From a virus: a stretch of DNA of 31,684 nt. The stretch lies in IMG/VR virus record IMGVR_UViG_3300042540_000254, positions 1 through 31,684 of that record; one strand, given 5' to 3'. Shown here piece by piece: positions 4,398 to 29,176 of this stretch (the first letter of the stretch is position 1; every line of letters begins with the position of its first letter). The translations under genes and the position numbers were made by a program. The notes under the pieces were generated by a model. The model was not told the origin of the DNA and ran no database searches. It saw only the letters and a program-made list of their open reading frames with translations.

Positions 4398-5336
4398 ATG
4401 TCAAACCCAAACTTTGATGCGTTGCTTTCAACAACGCTCGCAAACTACCGTGACCAACTCACGGACAACATCTTCACGGCACGCCCGTTGACCTACTTCC
4501 TTTCGGATAAGGGTCGCATCCGCATGCTGAATGGTGGTACGAAGATTGTTGAACCGCTCATCTACGGTCAGAACAGCACCGTGGCATCGTACAGTGGCTA
4601 CGACACCATCTCGCTGACGGCTCAGTCGGGCATCACCGCAGCCGAGTACGACTGGAAGCAGTACGCTGCATCCATCGCCATCTCGGGAATTGAAGAGGCT
4701 AAGAACAATGGCGAGCAGGAAATCATCAACCTGCTTGAGGCTAAGATTATGCAGGCTGAAGAGTCCATGCGTGAAGGCTTCAACCAGATGTTCTTCGCAG
4801 ACGGAACGGGCAACAGCGGCAAGGACTGGAACGGTCTTGGCAACATCGTTGAGGCTTCGGGAACCGTTGGTGGAATCAACCGTGCAACCGCTGGCAACGA
4901 GTACTGGCGTTCGTACGAGGAGAACACCGCAGGTGCTTTGACCCTCGCCCAGATGGCAACGGCGTACAACAGCGTGTCGGTTGGTAACGACCACCCAGAC
5001 ATGGTGCTGACGACCCAGACCCTGTACGAGAAGTACGAGTCGCTGCTCCAGCCGCAACTCCGCTACACCGACACCAAGACGGCAGATGCTGGTTTCCAGA
5101 ACCTGCTGTTCAAGGCTGCTCCAGTGGTGTACGATGAGCATTGCACCGCTGGTGTCGTGTACTTCCTGAATAGCAAGTACCTGACCCTTGTGGGTCACAC
5201 GGGTAAGTGGTTCGCTCAGACGGAGTTCGTCCGCCCAGAGAACCTTGATGCCCGTTATGCACTCATCATGTGCTACGGTAACCTGACCTGCCGTAATGCG
5301 GCTAAGCAGGGTAAGTTGACCGCCAAGACCGCCTAA
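4398..5336 (+). CDS. Major capsid protein
   Basis: A 312-residue HK97-fold-type capsid protein. Support comes from position after scaffold, size, the start pattern (NFDALLSTTLANYRDQLTDNIF), the long helix LLEAKIMQAEESMREGFNQMFF at about 114-136 and the C-terminal beta-rich P-domain-like part (VVYDEHCTAGVVYFLNSKYL). It has a strong AAGGAG ribosome-binding site and is followed by the strongest terminator in the window. Codon choice differs from neighbours: C-ending codons (AAC, GAC, ATC, ACC, TAC) dominate, whereas adjacent genes prefer T-ending ones. This fits selection for very high expression. No capsid protease gene is seen nearby. Confidence 0.9.
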   Translation: MSNPNFDALLSTTLANYRDQLTDNIFTARPLTYFLSDKGRIRMLNGGTKIVEPLIYGQNSTVASYSGYDTISLTAQSGITAAEYDWKQYAASIAISGIEEAKNNGEQEIINLLEAKIMQAEESMREGFNQMFFADGTGNSGKDWNGLGNIVEASGTVGGINRATAGNEYWRSYEENTAGALTLAQMATAYNSVSVGNDHPDMVLTTQTLYEKYESLLQPQLRYTDTKTADAGFQNLLFKAAPVVYDEHCTAGVVYFLNSKYLTLVGHTGKWFAQTEFVRPENLDARYALIMCYGNLTCRNAAKQGKLTAKTA

Positions 5337-5359
5337 GTAGCGTCTGGGAACAACTGAAT

Positions 5360-5389
5360 AATGGTGGGGGGAGAAATCCCCCCACCATT
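5360..5389 (+). terminator. Strong intrinsic terminator after capsid gene
   Basis: A 13-bp perfect stem (AATGGTGGGGGGA with its complement TCCCCCCACCATT) closed by a GAAA tetraloop, followed by TTCTTATTT. The stem, the GNRA loop and the T-rich tail are those of an efficient Rho-independent terminator. It separates the heavily expressed scaffold/capsid segment from the downstream minor structural genes and would also protect the capsid mRNA 3' end. Confidence 0.88.
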
Positions 5390-18409: not shown

Positions 18410-18548
18410 CGGGCTTTGGTCCTTTATAGGACTGCACGAGCCAGTAATAGAACTGGTCGTCATCCCCTGAGCGGTATGCGCTCAGCATACCGTCAATGCA
18501 TTCTTCTAGGAAGAAGCACTTCTGCTTGTATTTTTCTGTGTTATCCAC
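18396..18548 (-). CDS. Small protein of unknown function
   Basis: A 50-residue protein. I start it at GTG 18548, which overlaps the stop of the Ntn-hydrolase gene (GTGGATAA), rather than further upstream inside that gene. The residues (KYKQKCFFLEECIDGMLSAY, then DDDQFYYWLVQSYKG) suggest two short helices with two Cys. Its stop lies within the start of the RusA-like gene. No family recognised. Confidence 0.6.
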   Translation of the reverse strand: MDNTEKYKQKCFFLEECIDGMLSAYRSGDDDQFYYWLVQSYKGPKPDGTA

Positions 18549-19128
18549 GGTTTGCCTCCTGTGTGAATATGTGGAATGGTGCGCCTGTACCTGAATCAAA
18601 CTTTGCACTAATGGATAATGCTTTCAGGATGGTTTGCTTGGCGAGTTGAATTGTAAGACGCTTCTTGTCGGTCAATGCTTGCAGTGCGCCTAGCCCGTAG
18701 TCGGAACCTGACCCAACCGCATACAGGCGGTTGGTGTCCATGTCCGTGCCATAATCATCGTCAATCTGATAGATGACCCCGTTCACCACCACGAGCGAGT
18801 CAATGGGGGTGGTTGCAACTTCGGAGTCGTACTGCGGTAAGCCTGTGCCAGCAGATTCCAGAACCGTTTTGTAGGCAGGGACAAATTGGCTGACGATGAA
18901 CTTGGTGAGTTTCACGCCTTGTGCCTTCGGTGGTACGGGTGGTGGTGTGAACGAATGTTGGATGATGTTCGCACCACGGGTGTGTCCTGCGATACCGATT
19001 AAGTATTTCCCTAGGGTGATGACTTTGGGTTGGGACGATTTGCCGATGCGTCCACCTTCGGTGGACCATTGAGAGTCTGAGCCGATTACAGCCCAGCCGT
19101 CACCTTGTACAGCGAGAATGGTTGTCAT
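18541..19128 (-). CDS. HslV / proteasome-beta-like Ntn hydrolase
   Basis: A 195-residue protein beginning MTTILAVQGDGWAVIGSD, directly comparable to the HslV start MTTIVSV. Removing Met leaves Thr as the N-terminal nucleophile. In mature numbering Thr1, Asp17 (GSDSQ), Lys34 (QPKVI) and Ser139 in AVGSGSDYGLGA match the catalytic set of HslV and proteasome beta subunits. ATG 19128 overlaps the upstream stop as ATGA; longer starts would run through the previous gene. The expected product is a cylindrical peptidase or a related amidohydrolase. No HslU-type ATPase is seen; the AAA+ gene in this window is of another class. Confidence 0.8.
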   Translation of the reverse strand: MTTILAVQGDGWAVIGSDSQWSTEGGRIGKSSQPKVITLGKYLIGIAGHTRGANIIQHSFTPPPVPPKAQGVKLTKFIVSQFVPAYKTVLESAGTGLPQYDSEVATTPIDSLVVVNGVIYQIDDDYGTDMDTNRLYAVGSGSDYGLGALQALTDKKRLTIQLAKQTILKALSISAKFDSGTGAPFHIFTQEANRG

Positions 19129-19331
19129 GCGTTTTTCCACCTGTATGCGTTTATGGCGTTTACGGTTCCGTAGAAGGCGGCTCCGAGGATGAATCCGTGT
19201 TGGCGTGTCGCCAAAGCGAACGCCACCCACAAGCATTCGTTGGTGAATGCGATAAGCCAGCCCCACCAGCGGTGCGTGCCAATTACCAGCATTCCGCACA
19301 CGCCGATAACACTTAGGATGTATGGCATCAT
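19125..19331 (-). CDS. Small membrane protein, PnuC-like fragment type
   Basis: A 68-residue, mostly hydrophobic protein with two or three membrane segments: PYILSVIGVCGMLVIG, GWLIAFTNECLWVAFALAT and HGFILGAAFYGTVNAI. The order W-GW-N-CLW-A-R-GF resembles a half-size PnuC/SWEET-like unit often found as a ~75-residue phage protein. It might transport or bind a small metabolite, or act as a membrane factor. Both ends overlap neighbours as ATGA, so it belongs to the same translationally coupled operon. Confidence 0.6.
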   Translation of the reverse strand: MMPYILSVIGVCGMLVIGTHRWWGWLIAFTNECLWVAFALATRQHGFILGAAFYGTVNAINAYRWKNA

Positions 19332-19750
19332 GCGGTCACCATTTTCACCAGTCCGCAACGCCCAATAGGCACGGACATAAACGATTCATTGCTGGTGTAC
19401 TTGGTGTCTTTGCGCACATGGTCGCTGGACTTGAGTGCTTCACGGGTGACGATTAAGCCGTGAGACAGTTCGTGGTTTAGCATAACGAAAAAGGTTTGTC
19501 GTGCATCATCCAGAAACTTTTCTTTTCTGGATGAGAAATGCACAGTCTCATAGGGGAAGTATTCGCCTGACCAGTTGTGTTTGACTTCAACTTCAAACGC
19601 ATAATGGTTTTTGCGTTTGCTGGCGAGAATGTCTATGCCGTACTGGTCGGGGTTCACATGCGCATCAAAGTCAAAACCTTTGAGCCATTGAATGACGATG
19701 AGTTTTGCATCATCATCCGCATCATACAGTTCTTGGTCAAATGGTTTCAT
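19328..19750 (-). CDS. PD-(D/E)XK-like nuclease
   Basis: A 140-residue protein with YGIDILASKRKNHYAFEVEVKHNW at 37-60: D40 before a strand, then E53/E55 and K57 give the D-(x)n-ExK core of PD-(D/E)XK enzymes. Later HFSSRKEKFL and a NHELSHGLIV strand complete a small alpha/beta fold. It lacks any extra domain. Its start overlaps the primase stop as ATGA. A restriction-like or repair nuclease is likely; the target is unknown. Confidence 0.6.
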   Translation of the reverse strand: MKPFDQELYDADDDAKLIVIQWLKGFDFDAHVNPDQYGIDILASKRKNHYAFEVEVKHNWSGEYFPYETVHFSSRKEKFLDDARQTFFVMLNHELSHGLIVTREALKSSDHVRKDTKYTSNESFMSVPIGRCGLVKMVTA

Positions 19751-20646
19751 GAGTGTACCCTGACAACCAGTTTATCAATCTCCAGTTCACCGTTAGGGCG
19801 CAGATGATATTTGCCCCAACGCTGGTCAGCGGTGCGGATAACGGTACGGGTTTGTGATGGATTCAGTCCACTGCGTACACATTCGTGACCCAACTTTGCT
19901 AGCGTGGTGGAACGGTCACGACCCTGTAGCGGTCCATCACGCCAAATGACCTTGCCCAATGGTGATAGCACAGCCATAGCCTCATCAAGGGTTGCATCAT
20001 AATCATAATTGCCGATGGGCTGCTGCGGCGCTGCAGGTGGTGTGTACATGTCTGCGATGCGTTGTAGCAGGTCCGTAGCGGTGCGATGCGAATATGCGGT
20101 GACCAGAAAATCTTCTAGCGGCATAACGGTGTCCGTTATGTCCATTATTCGTTGACGGTCGGTGTTCTGGTTGTTGAACCAGCCAGCGTACGGCAAACGA
20201 ACATAGTTGCCGACCTGACCGATGTTCAGCGCAACTTGCTTGGGGTTGACCTCGGTCGTTGGAACCTCGGCAACATGGCATGCAACAATCAAAGCATGAC
20301 GCATAGTTTCAGCAAGGACAAGAGTCTCGGGAAACACCCACACATGGTAGCCCTTGGAGCGTGAACGCTCTACCCATGCAGTGATGCCAGCGTGAGCGAG
20401 TGCTGAACGCAGACTGGTGGCATGCTGTTGCGCATCGGCGGTGTCAAAGTCAACACAGCCCCACGCAACCATCCAATGCCCATGACGCAACACCATCGGA
20501 TACACACCGATGGGCTTGTCATAAAAGTGTGCTTCCAACACTTGCTCCGTTAACGGTTGCTTGACACAGCCGCCTTCGTTGCTTCCGTAGCAGTCGCCCC
20601 GACCGAAGAACAATCGGGCGAACGACTCAAGTTCTTGCTTGTCCAT
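19747..20646 (-). CDS. AEP-family primase (primase-polymerase type)
   Basis: A 299-residue replication protein. The catalytic signature of archaeo-eukaryotic primases is visible: VDFD at 65-68 (metal-binding acids), ERSRSKGYHVWVF at 93-105 (the SxH-type motif) and NYVRLPYAG at 147-155. The C-terminal part (about 215-299, SPLGKVIWRDG, STTLAKLGHECVRSGL) resembles the helical PriCT region. It is expected to make RNA or DNA primers at the fork, working with the adjacent helicase. The gene begins two bases after the helicase stop. No separate DNA polymerase is seen in the window. Confidence 0.78.
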   Translation of the reverse strand: MDKQELESFARLFFGRGDCYGSNEGGCVKQPLTEQVLEAHFYDKPIGVYPMVLRHGHWMVAWGCVDFDTADAQQHATSLRSALAHAGITAWVERSRSKGYHVWVFPETLVLAETMRHALIVACHVAEVPTTEVNPKQVALNIGQVGNYVRLPYAGWFNNQNTDRQRIMDITDTVMPLEDFLVTAYSHRTATDLLQRIADMYTPPAAPQQPIGNYDYDATLDEAMAVLSPLGKVIWRDGPLQGRDRSTTLAKLGHECVRSGLNPSQTRTVIRTADQRWGKYHLRPNGELEIDKLVVRVHS

Positions 20647-23996: not shown

Positions 23997-24605
23997 TCAC
24001 TCACCACCTTTCAGGAAGTCCTCAACCTCGTTGACCAGCACATCGCCCTGCTTGCTAAGGGCGTACTCTTCAAGGCGCTTCATGAACTCATCCATCATCT
24101 CCTTAAGTGAGCGTGCCGCCTCATAATCTTCGGAGGAAACTGTGCGCTCCAACACCTCGGCGAACTCACGCAACTCATCCTCGGAAATGATTCCGAAATG
24201 CTTGCCAGCCTCAAGGACCGCACCGATAGCCACAGACTCATTGTAAGTCTCAGCGACTTGCTCCGTGAACTTGGTGGTCAACCACTTGTAAATGTGGTTC
24301 GGCACATCATAATTCTCGCCGTCATAGTCACCGCTAGGTGAAGTACCCGACACCAACACAACAGGACCACGCAACTCCCTCAGGAACAGCGCACTAGCAT
24401 ACCAGTTCACTGGCAGGTCCAACAGCAGACCCTCGTCATGCACATATCCGACAAGGACTGTTCCATCAGGCAGTTCCTGACGCACAGCGTCAATCGTGCC
24501 TCCAACATAAGTTTGGATAGATTCCAAACCACTAACGATTGCTGGCTCAATGTTCGCATTGATGCCAGCAGGGAGCAACGCTCCTGCAACGGGCATAGTA
24601 CCCAT
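23997..24605 (-). CDS. DUF3846-domain protein
   Basis: A 202-residue protein. Residues 28-86 match the DUF3846 pattern: ESIQTYVGGTIDAV, then VGYVHDEGLLLDLPVNWYAS, then LRGPVVLVSG. The C-terminal part is acidic and helical (DELREFAEVLERTVSSEDYE, about 140-160) with a coiled coil before the end. DUF3846 proteins occur widely in actinophages and their role is unknown. The gene is the direct downstream partner of hammerhead copy C. Its ribosome-binding site TTGGAGG lies in a CACCT/AGGTG hairpin (24610-24622). Confidence 0.75.
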   Translation of the reverse strand: MGTMPVAGALLPAGINANIEPAIVSGLESIQTYVGGTIDAVRQELPDGTVLVGYVHDEGLLLDLPVNWYASALFLRELRGPVVLVSGTSPSGDYDGENYDVPNHIYKWLTTKFTEQVAETYNESVAIGAVLEAGKHFGIISEDELREFAEVLERTVSSEDYEAARSLKEMMDEFMKRLEEYALSKQGDVLVNEVEDFLKGGE

Positions 24606-24633: not shown

Positions 24634-24698
24634 GGACTCATCAGCACGGACATTTATCCGTGGACACGGAACGCATGACCTCGTTCCGTGTTTCGTCC
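24634..24698 (-). ncRNA. Type II hammerhead ribozyme, copy C
   Basis: On the - strand in order: GGAC; GAA; stem III of 10 bp (ACACGGAACG / CGUUCCGUGU, 8-base loop); C17; stem I of 6 bp (CACGGA / UCCGUG, loop UAAAUG); CUGAUGA; GUCC closing the open stem II with GGAC. All invariant core bases are present. Predicted cleavage is after C17, between 24663 and 24662. The 3' end lies 28 bases before the ATG of the DUF3846 gene. The product mRNA would start with a 5'-OH. Confidence 0.93.
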
Positions 24699-24774
24699 TA
24701 CCAGTTGTGAGAATTAGACTGACTCGGTTTCCGTACCTCCTTGGTCGTAAACACCTTATAGAACCACTAGTTAA

Positions 24775-25110
24775 TCATTCCCCGAAGAACCCTTCGGCAT
24801 GACCAATGAACCATTGAACAGCCTCAGCCCGTGTCAAGAAAACCTCACGGTCCACAGACTGACAATTCTCATAGTCCATCATCCAAAACTCAACGACCCA
24901 CCAACCATTGTTCCAGTCATACCACATGAAATACTTCGTATCCCACGGAGCATCAACACACAACTCGTCACATGAATCGTCCAACATGTCCGTCACCCAA
25001 CTAGGTGTACGCTTACGACCCGTTAGCCACGGAATCCAACGCAACCCCAGCATCGTGATGAAATAAATGGCACACATAATCAGCATGCCCAACCATTGTT
25101 CCCTTAACAT
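24775..25110 (-). CDS. Trp-rich single-pass membrane protein
   Basis: A 111-residue protein starting at ATG 25110, which overlaps the stop of the previous gene (TAATG). One membrane helix near the start (LGMLIMCAIYFITMLGL, about 7-23) and a basic turn (TGRKR) are followed by a soluble part rich in Trp and aromatic residues (KYFMWYDWNNGWWVVEFWM). This predicts an N-terminal anchor with the domain on the cytoplasmic side. No family recognised. The 75 bases after its stop, up to hammerhead C, hold only an 18-codon frame. Confidence 0.6.
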   Translation of the reverse strand: MLREQWLGMLIMCAIYFITMLGLRWIPWLTGRKRTPSWVTDMLDDSCDELCVDAPWDTKYFMWYDWNNGWWVVEFWMMDYENCQSVDREVFLTRAEAVQWFIGHAEGFFGE

Positions 25111-25256
25111 TATTCTTTCTCCCAACCCGACTTATAGTCGGCTTCTAGTTTGTCCAATATGTCTGCACGCCTACGAAGTTCTTCCGCAGTCGCAATCAAT
25201 CGCAACTCCGACTCAAGCATGTCCGCTTGTCGCCGTAGCATTTCGCTTTGCTTCAT
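25110..25256 (-). CDS. 48-residue coiled-coil protein
   Basis: ATG 25256 with GGAGGG upstream; the longer open frame above it is not credible. Nearly every residue belongs to a charged helix with regular Leu/Met spacing (MLRRQADMLESELRLI, then AEELRRRADILDKLEADY), so a dimeric coiled coil is likely. The stop overlaps the next ATG. Role unknown; perhaps a partner of the following membrane protein. Confidence 0.62.
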   Translation of the reverse strand: MKQSEMLRRQADMLESELRLIATAEELRRRADILDKLEADYKSGWEKE

Positions 25257-25259
25257 AAT

Positions 25260-25275
25260 CAACCCTCCAAGGTTG
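25260..25275 (-). promoter_or_regulatory. Hairpin presenting a ribosome-binding site
   Basis: The leader of the 48-residue gene reads CAACC-UUGGAG-GGUUG on the - strand: a 5-bp stem with most of the Shine-Dalgarno UUGGAGG in the loop, just upstream of ATG 25256. It belongs to a set of similar leaders in this module. Confidence 0.6.
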
Positions 25276-25312
25276 CTCGTTGTTTTTCGTTCACATTCTA
25301 CACATGGGGACA

Positions 25313-25342
25313 GGGGACGGAGGAATAAGTCCCCCCGTCCCC
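25313..25342 (-). other. G+C-rich stem-loop in intergenic region
   Basis: An 8-bp perfect stem GGGGACGG / CCGTCCCC, with possible inner pairs of GGGGA to TTCCT, in the gap between the 287-residue gene and the coiled-coil gene. No T-run follows in the - direction, so it is more likely a transcript-stability or partial-termination hairpin than a classic terminator. Confidence 0.5.
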
Positions 25343-25353
25343 ACATGCATCAC

Positions 25354-26217
25354 TCAAATAAGGTCAAGTCCCTTGACCGTGTTCAGCACCCAGTTCACTG
25401 GGTCAGCGAGAATGTCACTCTCGGTACCCCAACGACCGCCGTTCTGTAGTTTCTCCACGACCACATCACAGTCACCGCCCAACATGTCGGCACATACCAT
25501 GTCTGACACTGAACCATAACCACTGTTGATGTACTCGTTCGCCCATTGCATCTGCTCCACACCACCGAACCCGATGCGGCGCAACATAGACGGATGAGCG
25601 ATAGCGAACATAATGTCATCAATGTCCATCATGTCCTGCGAGTCATGCAACTTGACCAGCATGCTGTACTTGTCCTTATTGTTTTTCGGACGGGCATAGC
25701 ATTGTTCGGTCCATAATTCAATGCCGACCCCCAACTTGTGCAACACATCAATGAGCGCACAAACTGCAACGCCACGGGCTTGAATCTGCTCAGGTGTCAC
25801 ATACGCCGAAGCAATACCAGCCACAAGAACACGGACCACACGACCCATCCGTGCCTGCGGCTCGGTGACATAATCCATCATGCACTCAGGGTCACCACTC
25901 ACATAGCGCCCCATGTCCACACTGTCACCGCTGTAGTCGTAGCGGATGGAAAACTGCTCGTCCATCGCCAACGACAACTGGGACTCCAGTTGATTAAACA
26001 TCTCCTGAACCTTAGGACGAACATCGTGCCAACCATCGGTCGCCAACTTCACTGCCGATGGCAGTGACGGAGTACCCGACCACTCATTATCGGTCGTCTT
26101 AGCAGACGACTTCGGATTCGGATTCTCACTGGCGAATCGTGCCGCATCCGCCAAGGATGATGCACGATGAACGATGCTGGTAGCACCGTTCGGCAACTTG
26201 CGCTTAATTGTTTCCAT
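25354..26217 (-). CDS. Candidate VWA-like partner of the AAA+ ATPase
   Basis: A 287-residue protein directly downstream of the MoxR-type ATPase gene. After a polar N-terminus, residues about 118-165 (RVVRVLVAGIASAYVT, then VAVCALIDVLHKLGVGIELWTE) look like the first strand, metal-site loop and second strand of a von Willebrand A fold, but with a degenerate DxSxS site. KYSMLVKLHDSQDMMDIDDI follows, as a later strand and acidic loop. MoxR ATPases usually act with VWA proteins, so this pairing is a reasonable inference, not a proven family. The ribosome-binding site lies in a hairpin loop. Confidence 0.55.
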   Translation of the reverse strand: METIKRKLPNGATSIVHRASSLADAARFASENPNPKSSAKTTDNEWSGTPSLPSAVKLATDGWHDVRPKVQEMFNQLESQLSLAMDEQFSIRYDYSGDSVDMGRYVSGDPECMMDYVTEPQARMGRVVRVLVAGIASAYVTPEQIQARGVAVCALIDVLHKLGVGIELWTEQCYARPKNNKDKYSMLVKLHDSQDMMDIDDIMFAIAHPSMLRRIGFGGVEQMQWANEYINSGYGSVSDMVCADMLGGDCDVVVEKLQNGGRWGTESDILADPVNWVLNTVKGLDLI

Positions 26218-26218
26218 G

Positions 26219-26237
26219 ATTCAACCTCCAGTTGAAT
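26219..26237 (-). promoter_or_regulatory. Hairpin presenting a ribosome-binding site
   Basis: The - strand leader reads ATTCAAC-UGGAG-GTTGAAT: a perfect 7-bp stem with UGGAG as its 5-base loop, ending one base before ATG 26217. The loop sequence is identical to that at 28218-28234 although the stems differ, which points to selection for the structure. Confidence 0.68.
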
Positions 26238-26263
26238 AGTAGCGGATGATTAGATGCTAACCA

Positions 26264-26284
26264 GTGTCACTCAGAGAGTGACAC
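26264..26284 (-). other. Perfect hairpin spanning the AAA+ gene stop codon
   Basis: GTGTCACTC-TCT-GAGTGACAC on the - strand, a 9-bp perfect stem with a 3-base loop that includes the TGA stop of the ATPase gene. No T-run follows. It could block 3' exonucleases, pause polymerase, or limit re-initiation at the next gene. Confidence 0.62.
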
Positions 26285-27518
26285 CAGCCAGCACCTTGTC
26301 AGCAATCTCAGGCTTCGCACCCTTGAGGATAGTCATACCGACCACCTCGGTGGTGGTAAACCCAGCCTTGAGGAGCCTTGCACCGTCACGGGCGGACCGT
26401 GGGGACACGATGACCTGCAGACCGTGAGAGGTCACATTCTTCCGTGCCGAACGAACAATGTTCGTCCACTTGGCAAGAACAGATGCATCCAAGCCTTCGG
26501 CTTGCATCATCGCATCCTCCACATTCTCATCAATGAGAATGTCCATAAACACAAAACGGTCCTTCGTGGCACCGTCAATCGGATTACGACCCACATACTG
26601 GGCGGTCGCACCATTGCCATAGGTGTTTCCTGCGGCAATCGCCACGAACCCATCATGACGCTTGACCATCCCATCAGGGAAAGCCATATAGCCATTCGCC
26701 AGTGCCGCATTCAGCGTCCCAAGGATGTTCGGATTCGCATTGTCAATCTCATCCATGAGATAGACACCGCCGAACTCAAAACGCTTACGGAACTCCGTTC
26801 CGACATAAACACCGTTCGCCGTCATGAATCCGACAAGGTCGGATTTTGATGACTGGGCATTGAACGACTGAGCCGAGAACTCCAAGCCAAGGGCTTGGGC
26901 TGCCCGTTCAGCAATCGTAGTCTTACCTGTCCCTGCCGAACCAACCATGAACACATTCAGCCCACAATTCAAAGTCTGCAAGACTTTCGTAAACTGATGG
27001 TGTTGAACACCATCTAGTTTCTTCGGCTCACGATTCGGCAGATTCACCACAGTAACCTGTGGACGAATCTTGTTGATTGCATCACCAAGTTCCGTGAACT
27101 TGGCATCCACAACACCAACAAGTTCAACGAACTTGGGAGCCGTATAATCACGGACCAGTTCCTTCACCGCACCCTCGTCAATCCCTGTGGGGATTGACTT
27201 GACAACATCGGTAACGATGTTGCGGATAGCAGTCTCCAGCCCCGTCTCGGCAGGGACAGCCTTAGGCTGTGGTGTTGGTGTTGGCATGCTCTGACCTCCA
27301 GTCAGTTTAGCGTTAACAATAGCCTTGATTTCATCAAGGGACTTGTGCATCGGTGTACCGTTCCACACAACATTAAGGTAGGAACCTACCTTAATCAGTG
27401 TATTCTTGTCCATCGTTGCGATGGGCTTGTTGTACTCGGCACCGTTCGGATAACGAACGGTAGCCACCTTGGTATCTGGATTAACCCAGATAATCTGTGG
27501 TGCTGGTCTTGCTGGCAT
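26271..27518 (-). CDS. MoxR/CbbQ-type AAA+ ATPase (AAA_5)
   Basis: A 415-residue ATPase. Residues about 1-75 form a small beta-rich domain, then comes a Pro-rich linker (PTPTPQPKAVP) and a helical part. The AAA+ core has Walker A GSAGTGKT at 193-200, DLVGFMTANGVYVGTEF after it, Walker B VYLMDEIDN at 252-260, sensor 1 AAGNTYG with N298, and arginine-finger candidate R321 in KDRFVF. It remodels a protein target, probably with the following gene product. The mRNA leader contains hammerhead copy A, and its start codon lies in a hairpin. Confidence 0.85.
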   Translation of the reverse strand: MPARPAPQIIWVNPDTKVATVRYPNGAEYNKPIATMDKNTLIKVGSYLNVVWNGTPMHKSLDEIKAIVNAKLTGGQSMPTPTPQPKAVPAETGLETAIRNIVTDVVKSIPTGIDEGAVKELVRDYTAPKFVELVGVVDAKFTELGDAINKIRPQVTVVNLPNREPKKLDGVQHHQFTKVLQTLNCGLNVFMVGSAGTGKTTIAERAAQALGLEFSAQSFNAQSSKSDLVGFMTANGVYVGTEFRKRFEFGGVYLMDEIDNANPNILGTLNAALANGYMAFPDGMVKRHDGFVAIAAGNTYGNGATAQYVGRNPIDGATKDRFVFMDILIDENVEDAMMQAEGLDASVLAKWTNIVRSARKNVTSHGLQVIVSPRSARDGARLLKAGFTTTEVVGMTILKGAKPEIADKVLAGVTL

Positions 27519-27533
27519 GATTCCTCCTCATGC
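27515..27533 (-). promoter_or_regulatory. Start-codon hairpin with ribosome-binding site in the loop
   Basis: The - strand reads GCATGA-GGAGGAA-TCATGC, a perfect 6-bp stem with the Shine-Dalgarno in a 7-base loop. The start codon of the AAA+ gene (ATG 27518) is within the 3' arm, so folding would hide the start while showing the ribosome-binding site. It lies 12 bases after hammerhead copy A. Confidence 0.65.
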
Positions 27534-27545
27534 AGATTGACTGAT

Positions 27546-27603
27546 GGACTCATCAGTATGGGCATTTACCCATAGACACGGGGCAAAGCCCCGTGTTTCG
27601 TCC
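27546..27603 (-). ncRNA. Type II hammerhead ribozyme, copy A
   Basis: - strand order: GGAC; GAA; stem III of 9 bp (ACACGGGGC / GCCCCGUGU, loop UUU); C17; stem I of 6 bp (UAUGGG / CCCAUA, loop UAAAUG); CUGAUGA; GUCC. Every invariant core base is present. Predicted cleavage is between 27575 and 27574. The first G is the last base of the upstream gene's TAG stop, and the 3' end is 27 bases before the AAA+ start codon. Confidence 0.94.
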
Positions 27604-27800
27604 TAGATTCCGTTTTCGCAATCCGAATAAAACGCTTTAGCGTTGAATCCCCGTCCGTGACGATTCAACACATCCGCCAAACACATCTCCACTTGGTCCA
27701 AAATACCCACGATAGCATCGTAGTCGGGACGGTCCGAATTGCACCGCCGAACCCAATTCATTGCACTAGCAATCTCACGAAAATGCTTATGCTTCAGCAT
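27603..27800 (-). CDS. 65-residue protein between two hammerhead ribozymes
   Basis: ATG 27800 follows a TGGAGG ribosome-binding site. The protein is helical with mixed charge (REIASAMNWVRRCNSDRPDYDAIVGILDQVEMCLADVL) and ends GFNAKAFYSDCENGI; three Cys are scattered. No family recognised. It is flanked by hammerhead B upstream and A downstream, so ribozyme action would release its mRNA as a short single-gene RNA of about 278 bases. Confidence 0.65.
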   Translation of the reverse strand: MLKHKHFREIASAMNWVRRCNSDRPDYDAIVGILDQVEMCLADVLNRHGRGFNAKAFYSDCENGI

Positions 27801-27823
27801 AATTCCTCCATGTTGCGACTGAT

Positions 27824-27882
27824 GGACTCATCAGTGACGGCATCTACCGTCAGACACCGACAATACTGTCGGTGTTTCGTCC
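27824..27882 (-). ncRNA. Type II hammerhead ribozyme, copy B
   Basis: - strand order: GGAC; GAA; stem III of 9 bp (ACACCGACA / UGUCGGUGU, loop GUAU); C17; stem I of 6 bp (UGACGG / CCGUCA, loop UAGAUG); CUGAUGA; GUCC. The core is complete. Predicted cleavage is between 27853 and 27852. It begins seven bases after the upstream stop codon and ends 23 bases before ATG 27800. TTGACA followed after 17 bases by TATTGT overlaps its 5' half and may be an internal promoter. Confidence 0.94.
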
Positions 27883-27889
27883 TGTCAAG

Positions 27890-28213
27890 TCAGTGCGGAA
27901 ACTGACGACCCGAACCATGTTCGTACCGAGGCTGACCGCCGTTTCGGCGGTACTTCCAGCCGAACTCCTTAAGGAGTTTGTTCATCCCCTGCTGGTCCGA
28001 AGCCGAACCCCACCCCGTGGACAACGGAGCGAACATCCACGATGACCCTTGGTCATCGTTCTTGTAGAATTCGCCCATCAATGTTCCATAATGGAACACC
28101 TCACGATGGATGGAAAAATCATCCACAGTGTCAACGAATGTCCATGCACCAAGTTTCTTAGTGCGATTACGCTTGAACTCGGTCACCAAAGGTGACATGT
28201 CCTGCAGTTTCAT
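27890..28213 (-). CDS. First gene of the early operon, unknown function
   Basis: A 107-residue protein from ATG 28213; the longer frame upstream crosses a structured leader and is not credible. The content is KRNRTKKLGAWTFVDTV, then EVFHYGTLMGEFYKN and STGWGSASDQQGMNKLL with GGQPRYEHGSG near the end. The GWGSASDQQGMN pattern recalls short actinophage proteins of unknown role. As the first gene after the non-coding control region it is probably among the first expressed. Confidence 0.68.
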   Translation of the reverse strand: MKLQDMSPLVTEFKRNRTKKLGAWTFVDTVDDFSIHREVFHYGTLMGEFYKNDDQGSSWMFAPLSTGWGSASDQQGMNKLLKEFGWKYRRNGGQPRYEHGSGRQFPH

Positions 28214-28217
28214 TGTA

Positions 28218-28234
28218 ATTGACCTCCAGTCAAT
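28218..28234 (-). promoter_or_regulatory. Hairpin presenting a ribosome-binding site
   Basis: The leader reads ATTGAC-UGGAG-GTCAAT on the - strand, a perfect 6-bp stem with loop UGGAG, four bases before ATG 28213. Same loop as at 26219-26237, different stem. Confidence 0.67.
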
Positions 28235-28235
28235 C

Positions 28236-28270
28236 AGTATACTTGTAAAATTACACTCAGAATGAGTGTA
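28236..28270 (-). promoter_or_regulatory. Candidate early promoter with palindromic operator
   Basis: On the - strand TATACT (28241-28236) is a good -10 element. The -35 position 17 bases upstream (CATTCT) is weak, but it lies inside a perfect palindrome TACACTCA-TTC-TGAGTGTA (28252-28270). A repressor or activator bound there could control the early operon. The transcript would start near the ribosome-binding-site hairpin. Not proven. Confidence 0.4.
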
Positions 28271-28316
28271 GCGGATTACCGTGGAATCGGACCACGGCTC
28301 ACGACAACACGCTCTA

Positions 28317-28392
28317 GCAGAAAACCTGCGTCCACATGCGCCGTTTATGACACCAGTCATAAACCGTACCAATGCAGGTGTTTTCCGTCTGC
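28317..28392. other. Composite 76-base inverted-repeat element
   Basis: Nested pairings: GCAG with CTGC outside, AAAACCTGC with GCAGGTGTTTT (two bulged bases), and an apical perfect 9-bp hairpin GTTTATGAC-ACCA-GTCATAAAC (28343-28364). It is not a tRNA (no T-loop sequence) and does not match any ribozyme core I know. It may be a structured RNA in the early leader or a DNA site. The strand is undecided. Confidence 0.5.
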
Positions 28393-29100: not shown

Positions 29101-29176
29101 TGGCTGGTTCCCTTGGGTTTGAACCAAGACCTGACGGATTAACAGTCCGTTGCACTGCCAATTATGCTAGGAACCA
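29101..29176 (-). tRNA. tRNA-Asn (anticodon GTT)
   Basis: A full cloverleaf of 76 bases on the - strand. Acceptor TGGTTCC pairs with GGAACCA; D-arm GCAT/GTGC has AATTGGCA in the loop; anticodon arm ACGGA-CTGTTAA-TCCGT has GTT as anticodon; T-arm CTTGG-TTCAAAC-CCAAG is standard. The discriminator G and CCA are encoded. It lies ten bases after the last gene of the basic-protein block and is probably cut from that transcript. No integrase or repeat suggests use as an attachment site. Confidence 0.95.

Follow-up and report, generated by a model that had tools for sequence, protein, structure and literature searches.

Compact type II hammerhead ribozymes at gene junctions in the replication module of a phage

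The 31.7-kb virus record IMGVR_UViG_3300042540_000254, which has been analysed over its whole length and is called here the window, carries three short elements between genes of its − strand, and the question raised by this locus is whether these elements are self-cleaving RNAs and what they would do for the phage. All three are true type II hammerhead ribozymes (HHRs), with cleavage predicted from their sequences. They belong to a compact phage subtype and would most likely cut the leftward mRNA of the replication module between genes, during or soon after transcription. Their structure, placement and conservation, the covariation between a 3' tail and the catalytic core and the chimeric nature of one copy were all read from nucleotide sequences, as described below.

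On the − strand, all three copies show the order GGAC-GAA-stem III hairpin-C17|stem I hairpin-CUGAUGA-GUCC, with the predicted cleavage site 3' of C17. The bases by which a hammerhead is recognized are present in each copy (core CUGANGA, GAA, A15.1-U16.1 and H17) and the core is surrounded by three helices, with 6 bp in stem I, 4 bp in stem II and 9-10 bp in stem III. Stems I and III are closed by loops and stem II is open, which is the type II topology. Every element is located between the stop codon of one gene and the Shine-Dalgarno (SD) sequence and start codon of the next gene on the same strand. Copy 1 starts 76 nt past the stop codon of a 116-aa open reading frame (ORF), the TGA codon of a 160-aa ORF ends 7 nt upstream of copy 3, and copy 2 overlaps the TAG stop codon of the upstream 65-aa ORF, the last base of this codon being the first base of the ribozyme, inside stem II. 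The coordinates, cores, stem pairings, predicted cleavage positions and distances of 23-28 nt to the start codons reported in the initial annotation were all confirmed from the sequence (Table 1), although the loops and stem III lengths were listed there out of step with the order of the coordinates. A sigma-70-like promoter match (TTGACA-17-TATTGT, 10/12) at 27888-27860 (−) overlaps copy 3; such matches are no more numerous in the region than expected by chance.

Strong hairpins do occur between genes, and ordinary intergenic hairpins such as terminators or RNase III sites might mimic hammerheads by chance. A gapped pattern and an independent structural descriptor both retrieved exactly these three HHRs in the window and nothing more. 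When the descriptor was applied to the reversed sequence of all fetched loci, no type II match was obtained in 4.27 Mb, and for types I, II and III pooled there was no match in 6.37 Mb of reversed sequence; chance hairpins were rejected on these zero counts. Circularity was checked by starting from sites selected for two features only, the core and a stem II of 4 perfect pairs, with stems I and III (≥5 bp) scored afterwards: 730 of the 814 sites also form both stems, the value for interior-shuffled sites being 0.05%. In 716 relatives the core positions are invariant, whereas the pairs of stems I and III range over all standard pair types. Intrinsic terminators were considered and rejected, as no terminator-like site coincides with any HHR and no U-run follows an HHR. 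The explanation by chance hairpins is, with these controls, effectively refuted.

The covariance-model search of the − strand with the Rfam families, a check proposed in the initial annotation, did not recover the elements. None of the three copies was matched at the gathering threshold, RF02276 (Hammerhead_II) gave no match in the window, and copies 3 and 2 were matched by RAGATH-1 (RF03152) only partially and below gathering, over the GGACGAAAC-stem III part and in a register that omits the true CUGAUGA core. Only two HHRs were found at gathering level in 14 test loci holding such elements. The window copies are outside the RF02276 model by score, yet their topology is that of type II.

The features of the compact form probably account for the fact that Hammerhead_II misses the window copies and that only two HHRs are matched in the 14 loci. 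The stem I hairpin has 18 nt or less, nearly always 17-18 nt, in 697 of 744 distinct type II copies (~94%). Complementarity of at least 4 pairs between loop I and the tail is at chance in these compact copies (77 observed versus 79.4 ± 9 expected), and the loop I-tail pseudoknot was therefore rejected as the conserved tertiary contact of this subtype. The Watson-Crick options between loop I and tail in the window copies are weak, with 3-4 pairs only. By contrast, the copies with a long stem I (n=47) show such complementarity in clear excess (25 versus 9.8 expected), as expected from the pseudoknot of Perreault et al. Compact copies share other features: an A directly before stem II, A(-1), in 696 of 716, an A directly after stem II in 565 of 716 and, in those with a 17-nt stem I, a U opening loop I in 587 of 596. 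All three features are present in all three window copies. Reverse Hoogsteen contacts are used by type I and III hammerheads (PMC6155905), and by analogy the loop U and a flanking A may be joined by a non-Watson-Crick contact in the compact copies.

Pattern scans of viral contigs were carried out for the common variants of stem II and core, and the counts derived from them are lower bounds. Structural scanning has yielded at least 780 unique type II HHRs, nearly all of them in viral contigs, with up to 11 in one locus; 53 stretches with the same kind of pattern were found in bacterial and archaeal genomes totalling 257 Gb. For 472 evaluable viral copies, a start codon preceded by an SD sequence lies within 80 nt downstream in 85% (22% at random, 7% on the opposite strand), with a median spacing of 23 nt, and a stop codon lies within 80 nt upstream in 75% (46% at random), at a median distance of 3 nt. 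Both signals occur together in 63% of these copies versus 9% at random. The typical viral copy has its stop codon within 0-12 nt, and for 46% of the viral type II HHRs the stop codon and stem II are 0-4 nt apart. The group is widespread and mostly unannotated, at gene boundaries of many phages. That type II hammerheads stand at gene junctions, as the initial annotation claimed, is well supported, and the placement has strong statistical backing from hundreds of relatives.

The idea that only type II HHRs precede start codons was rejected, as type III and many type I hammerheads of other phages are placed there too. In the loci chosen for types I and III (L513-L632), many hammerheads likewise lie just before an SD sequence and start codon; they are almost never co-located with type II (2 of the 131 copies in these loci are type II) and do not have the TCAG tail described below. 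Conversely, of 760 copies in the loci selected for type II, 748 are type II and 12 belong to types I/III. Type III copies of L513-L632 stand before start codons, but in no case is the preceding stop codon 4 nt away or less, a position in which types I and II are found.

In the type II arrangement, the cut falls between two entire hairpins, that of stem III on its upstream side and that of stem I on its downstream side. After cleavage, the upstream message would end in the GC-rich stem III hairpin with a 2',3'-cyclic phosphate and the downstream message would carry a 5'-OH on the stem I hairpin and begin about 50-60 nt ahead of its start codon. Judging from topology, type II is the only hammerhead order in which both of the new ends would keep an entire hairpin, of stem III and of stem I respectively. 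We infer that cleavage takes place in the cell and has consequences for message decay and translation, in that the cuts would uncouple the stability and translation of adjacent genes. Ends with a 5'-OH are poor substrates for 5'-monophosphate-dependent decay, and a self-cleaving mRNA system with decay-resistant 5'-OH ends, as suggested in the initial annotation, is plausible. The stop codon and the SD sequence are packed at either side of the ribozyme, and translation of both genes may compete with its folding.

A second structure is predicted in copies 2 and 3. The bases that follow stem II are AUCAG in both of them, and the core can be paired with this 3' tail in the hairpin CUGAUG-AGUC-CAUCAG, which is predicted both for the 3' product and for the minimum free energy (MFE) structure of the full RNA, tertiary contacts being outside the energy model. 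The sequence TCAG is found at tail positions 2-8 in 100 of 776 type II copies (~13%), and the other 23 letter orders average 7.9. The base at core position 7, which is the sole free base of CUGANGA, predicts its partner in the tail: with U7 the tail has A in 68 copies and G in 4, and with C7 it has G in 26 copies and A in 1 (p=1.4e-18). This covariation is retained when one copy per sequence cluster is taken (p=5.8e-13). Two wider forms of the pairing were tried and set aside: general tail-core pairing beyond the TCAG class is chance-like and not supported, and another class of tails (GAGUC combined with GACUY, of which copy 1 is an example), which is only mildly enriched with the GUC stem II and shows no covariation with stem II variants, is not claimed.

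Pairing of the core with the tail is incompatible with an active core, so the hairpin would act either after cleavage or against cleavage. In the first case, the tail of copies 2 and 3 would pair with the freed core (CUGAUG/CAUCAG) and block religation. We favour this product trap as the probable purpose of the refolding, and a brake on cleavage is a live rival. The trap is also relevant to the proposal that cleavage and ligation together yield circular or spliced phage RNAs, an option raised by Perreault et al. (PMC3088659) and compatible with the presence of three copies per transcript and with the capacity of hammerheads to ligate. Such products were sought by the same authors and none were found (PMC3088659), and the hairpin of copies 2 and 3 would oppose religation, so that we consider ligation a very improbable function.

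Several observations weigh against a cutting role for these elements and against the tail as a part of it. Conservation of the same junction placement in related phages, a check proposed in the initial annotation, gave a mixed result. Three loci (L507, L508 and L509) retain the HHR that precedes the DUF3846 gene, with protein identity down to 52%, and four (L508, L509, L510 and L042) retain the one that precedes the AAA gene, with protein identity down to 55%; in these kept junction HHRs, which correspond to copies 1 and 2, the stems have been rewritten and still pair. However, relatives at ~45% protein identity have no HHR at the junctions of copies 1 and 2, and often have HHRs at other junctions, which means that the junction HHRs are not essential. 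They look selected over moderate distances yet dispensable. In addition, most of the remaining junctions of the window do not have an HHR. With regard to the tail, it is found in ~13% of the copies only, and those without TCAG show little tail-core pairing beyond chance. The prediction that A7 or G7 of the core would go with T or C in the tail is not supported by usable cases, as a single TCAG occurs among the 60 HHRs whose core position 7 is a purine, without the expected partner. Finally, in the MFE of uncut copies 2 and 3, with tertiary contacts unmodelled, the core-tail hairpin is preferred over the ribozyme, and the tail could thus equally restrain cleavage.

This last result is in favour of a conditional switch, in which the tail-core hairpin and the ribosomes at the stop and start codons would block folding, and cleavage would occur only upon a change in translation or magnesium, the element being a regulated brake instead of a constitutive processor. 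The covariation of the hairpin with the core, the frequent position of the stop codon next to stem II, which it overlaps in copy 2, and the median distance to the start codon are compatible with such a switch; a site about 23 nt before a start codon is near the upstream edge of an initiating 30S subunit. On the other hand, the tail is absent in 87% of type II HHRs, a ligand-like domain is absent too, and tight packing could be mere genome economy. A regulated switch is considered rather unlikely, and cutting of the mRNA between genes during or soon after transcription is still preferred.

The HHRs may have an additional use at the gene boundaries. Copy 1 is chimeric with respect to locus L016, which has two HHRs: it agrees with the first of them in the upstream flank and stem III, and with the second in stem I, the tail and the downstream flank. 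The L016 gene lying between these two HHRs is absent from the window. This chimera indicates that HHRs also act as recombination joints, and HHR boundaries would serve in this way for the gain or loss of whole genes. Six HHR × HHR chimeras were found including copy 1 (about four of them independent), five being in other phages (about three independent). Homology ends on one side only in 77% of HHR pairs versus 58% of other junction pairs from the same contigs, these pairs being non-independent, and this excess of homology stops at HHRs is suggestive of boundary recombination. An extreme form of the idea is that the elements are mainly recombination joints, whose repeated copies at boundaries let phages swap or lose cassettes, with cleavage secondary or absent. 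Sequence identity would suffice for recombination, however, and neither compensatory changes in the stems nor a near-invariant catalytic core would be needed; besides, the stems differ widely among copies. Recombination as the main function is therefore improbable. More tentatively, the compact type II HHRs could be modular boundary devices of phages that cut the mRNA, with hairpin-capped message ends, a tail that switches off the spent core in a subset of copies, and cassette crossover points.

The + strand of the window carries structural genes, including a P22-like portal, and the − strand genes encode an AAA ATPase, DUF7192 and DUF3846 proteins, a PD-(D/E)XK nuclease, a DnaB-like helicase and an archaeo-eukaryotic-type primase. 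From this gene content, the − strand module would be an early operon. The ORFs around the three HHRs are given in Table 1; both junctions that flank the 287-aa ORF are without an HHR. The primase (AEP-TOTE, PF22548, 2.9e-17) is encoded at 19747-20646 (−), adjoining the DnaB-like helicase gene. At 18541-19299 (−), the encoded protein resembles proteasome/HslV-type peptidases (PF00227, 1.6e-7), its best PDB match being the bacterial proteasome homologue BPH (1.4e-4). A tRNA-Asn (GTT) gene is located at 29101-29176 (−). In the structural module, a strong hairpin (GGUGGGGGGAG AAAU CCCCCCACC) at 5326-5386 (+), noticed through a sub-threshold Rfam match, lies 3' of the gene at 4398-5336.

Table 1. 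Hammerhead ribozymes, predicted refolding hairpins and neighbouring ORFs of the window, and the tandem ribozyme pair of phage Thestral. Distances to the start codon are those from the end of the ribozyme; cleavage is predicted 3' of C17.
Feature	Coordinates	Strand	Remarks
Type II HHR, copy 1	24634..24698	−	Before DUF3846 gene; stem III 10 bp, stem I 6 bp, loop UAAAUG; C17 at 24663; ATG at 24605, spacing 28 nt
Type II HHR, copy 2	27546..27603	−	Before AAA ATPase gene; stem III 9 bp, stem I 6 bp, loop UAAAUG; C17 at 27575; ATG at 27518, spacing 27 nt
Type II HHR, copy 3	27824..27882	−	Between 160-aa ORF and 65-aa ORF; stem III 9 bp, stem I 6 bp, loop UAGAUG; C17 at 27853; ATG at 27800, spacing 23 nt
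Predicted refolding hairpin, copy 2	27541..27556	−	Core paired with 3' tail
Predicted refolding hairpin, copy 3	27819..27834	−	Core paired with 3' tail
202-aa ORF, DUF3846 (PF12957, 1.5e-8)	23997..24605	−	Downstream of copy 1
116-aa ORF	24775..25125	−	Upstream of copy 1
287-aa ORF, DUF7192 (PF23822, 3.6e-40)	25354..26217	−	
415-aa AAA ATPase (PF07728)	26271..27518	−	Downstream of copy 2
65-aa ORF, no family match	27603..27800	−	Between copies 3 and 2
160-aa ORF, no family match	27890..28372	−	Upstream of copy 3
Tandem type II HHR pair, 10 nt apart	NC_054670.1 51007-51133 (locus L750/L781)	−	Before one Thestral gene

The cultured and annotated Streptomyces phage Thestral contains five type II copies that its annotation does not include, and is the most suitable system found for measuring cleavage and its consequences for the ends of messages. 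Most copies of the Streptomyces phages Thestral (L750) and phiRKBJ001 (L749) have longer stem I hairpins, and some Thestral loops can pair with the tail, like the pseudoknot of published type II ribozymes. The role of hammerheads in bacteria and phages is considered an open question in a review (PMC6155905). The present analysis supplies a large and sharply placed set of the compact subtype, a second structure backed by covariation and a direct example of boundary recombination, and it indicates that RNA annotation of phage genomes with Rfam only overlooks most of these ribozymes. No description of a compact subtype without pseudoknot as the predominant form in phages, of the covarying tail-core hairpin or of HHR × HHR recombination was found in the open-licence literature.

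Hammerheads have been related to phage genes before. An enrichment near Mu-like phage genes has been described (PMC10085705), and HHphage of haloviruses HF1/HF2 precedes an early helicase gene by 13 nt, the mapped 5' end of the transcript being no more than 3 nt away from the HHR cleavage site (PMC3088659). HHphage has a core variant and is present as a single copy in an archaeal virus, unlike the three type II copies of the window. Natural type II HHRs and HHR clusters around prophage genes were reported by Perreault et al. in 2011, together with the proposal of transcript processing; in vitro cleavage was shown for tandem clusters, and one triple set was also cleaved in E. coli (PMC3088659). 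The multi-copy arrangement at junctions, treated as new in the initial annotation, and the idea of processing were thus already available, and what is added here is the core-refolding tail of copies 2 and 3, the missing of the usual pseudoknot and the chimeric copy 1. The type II ribozymes of RF02276 and Perreault et al. (PMC3088659) have the same core, open stem II, predicted cleavage site and phage or prophage setting as the window copies, and the gene-flanking clusters are common to both. The loop-tail pseudoknot is found in the majority of the published type II copies, not in all (PMC3088659), whereas the window copies and ~94% of the set analysed here have a stem I hairpin of 17-18 nt and are built without it.

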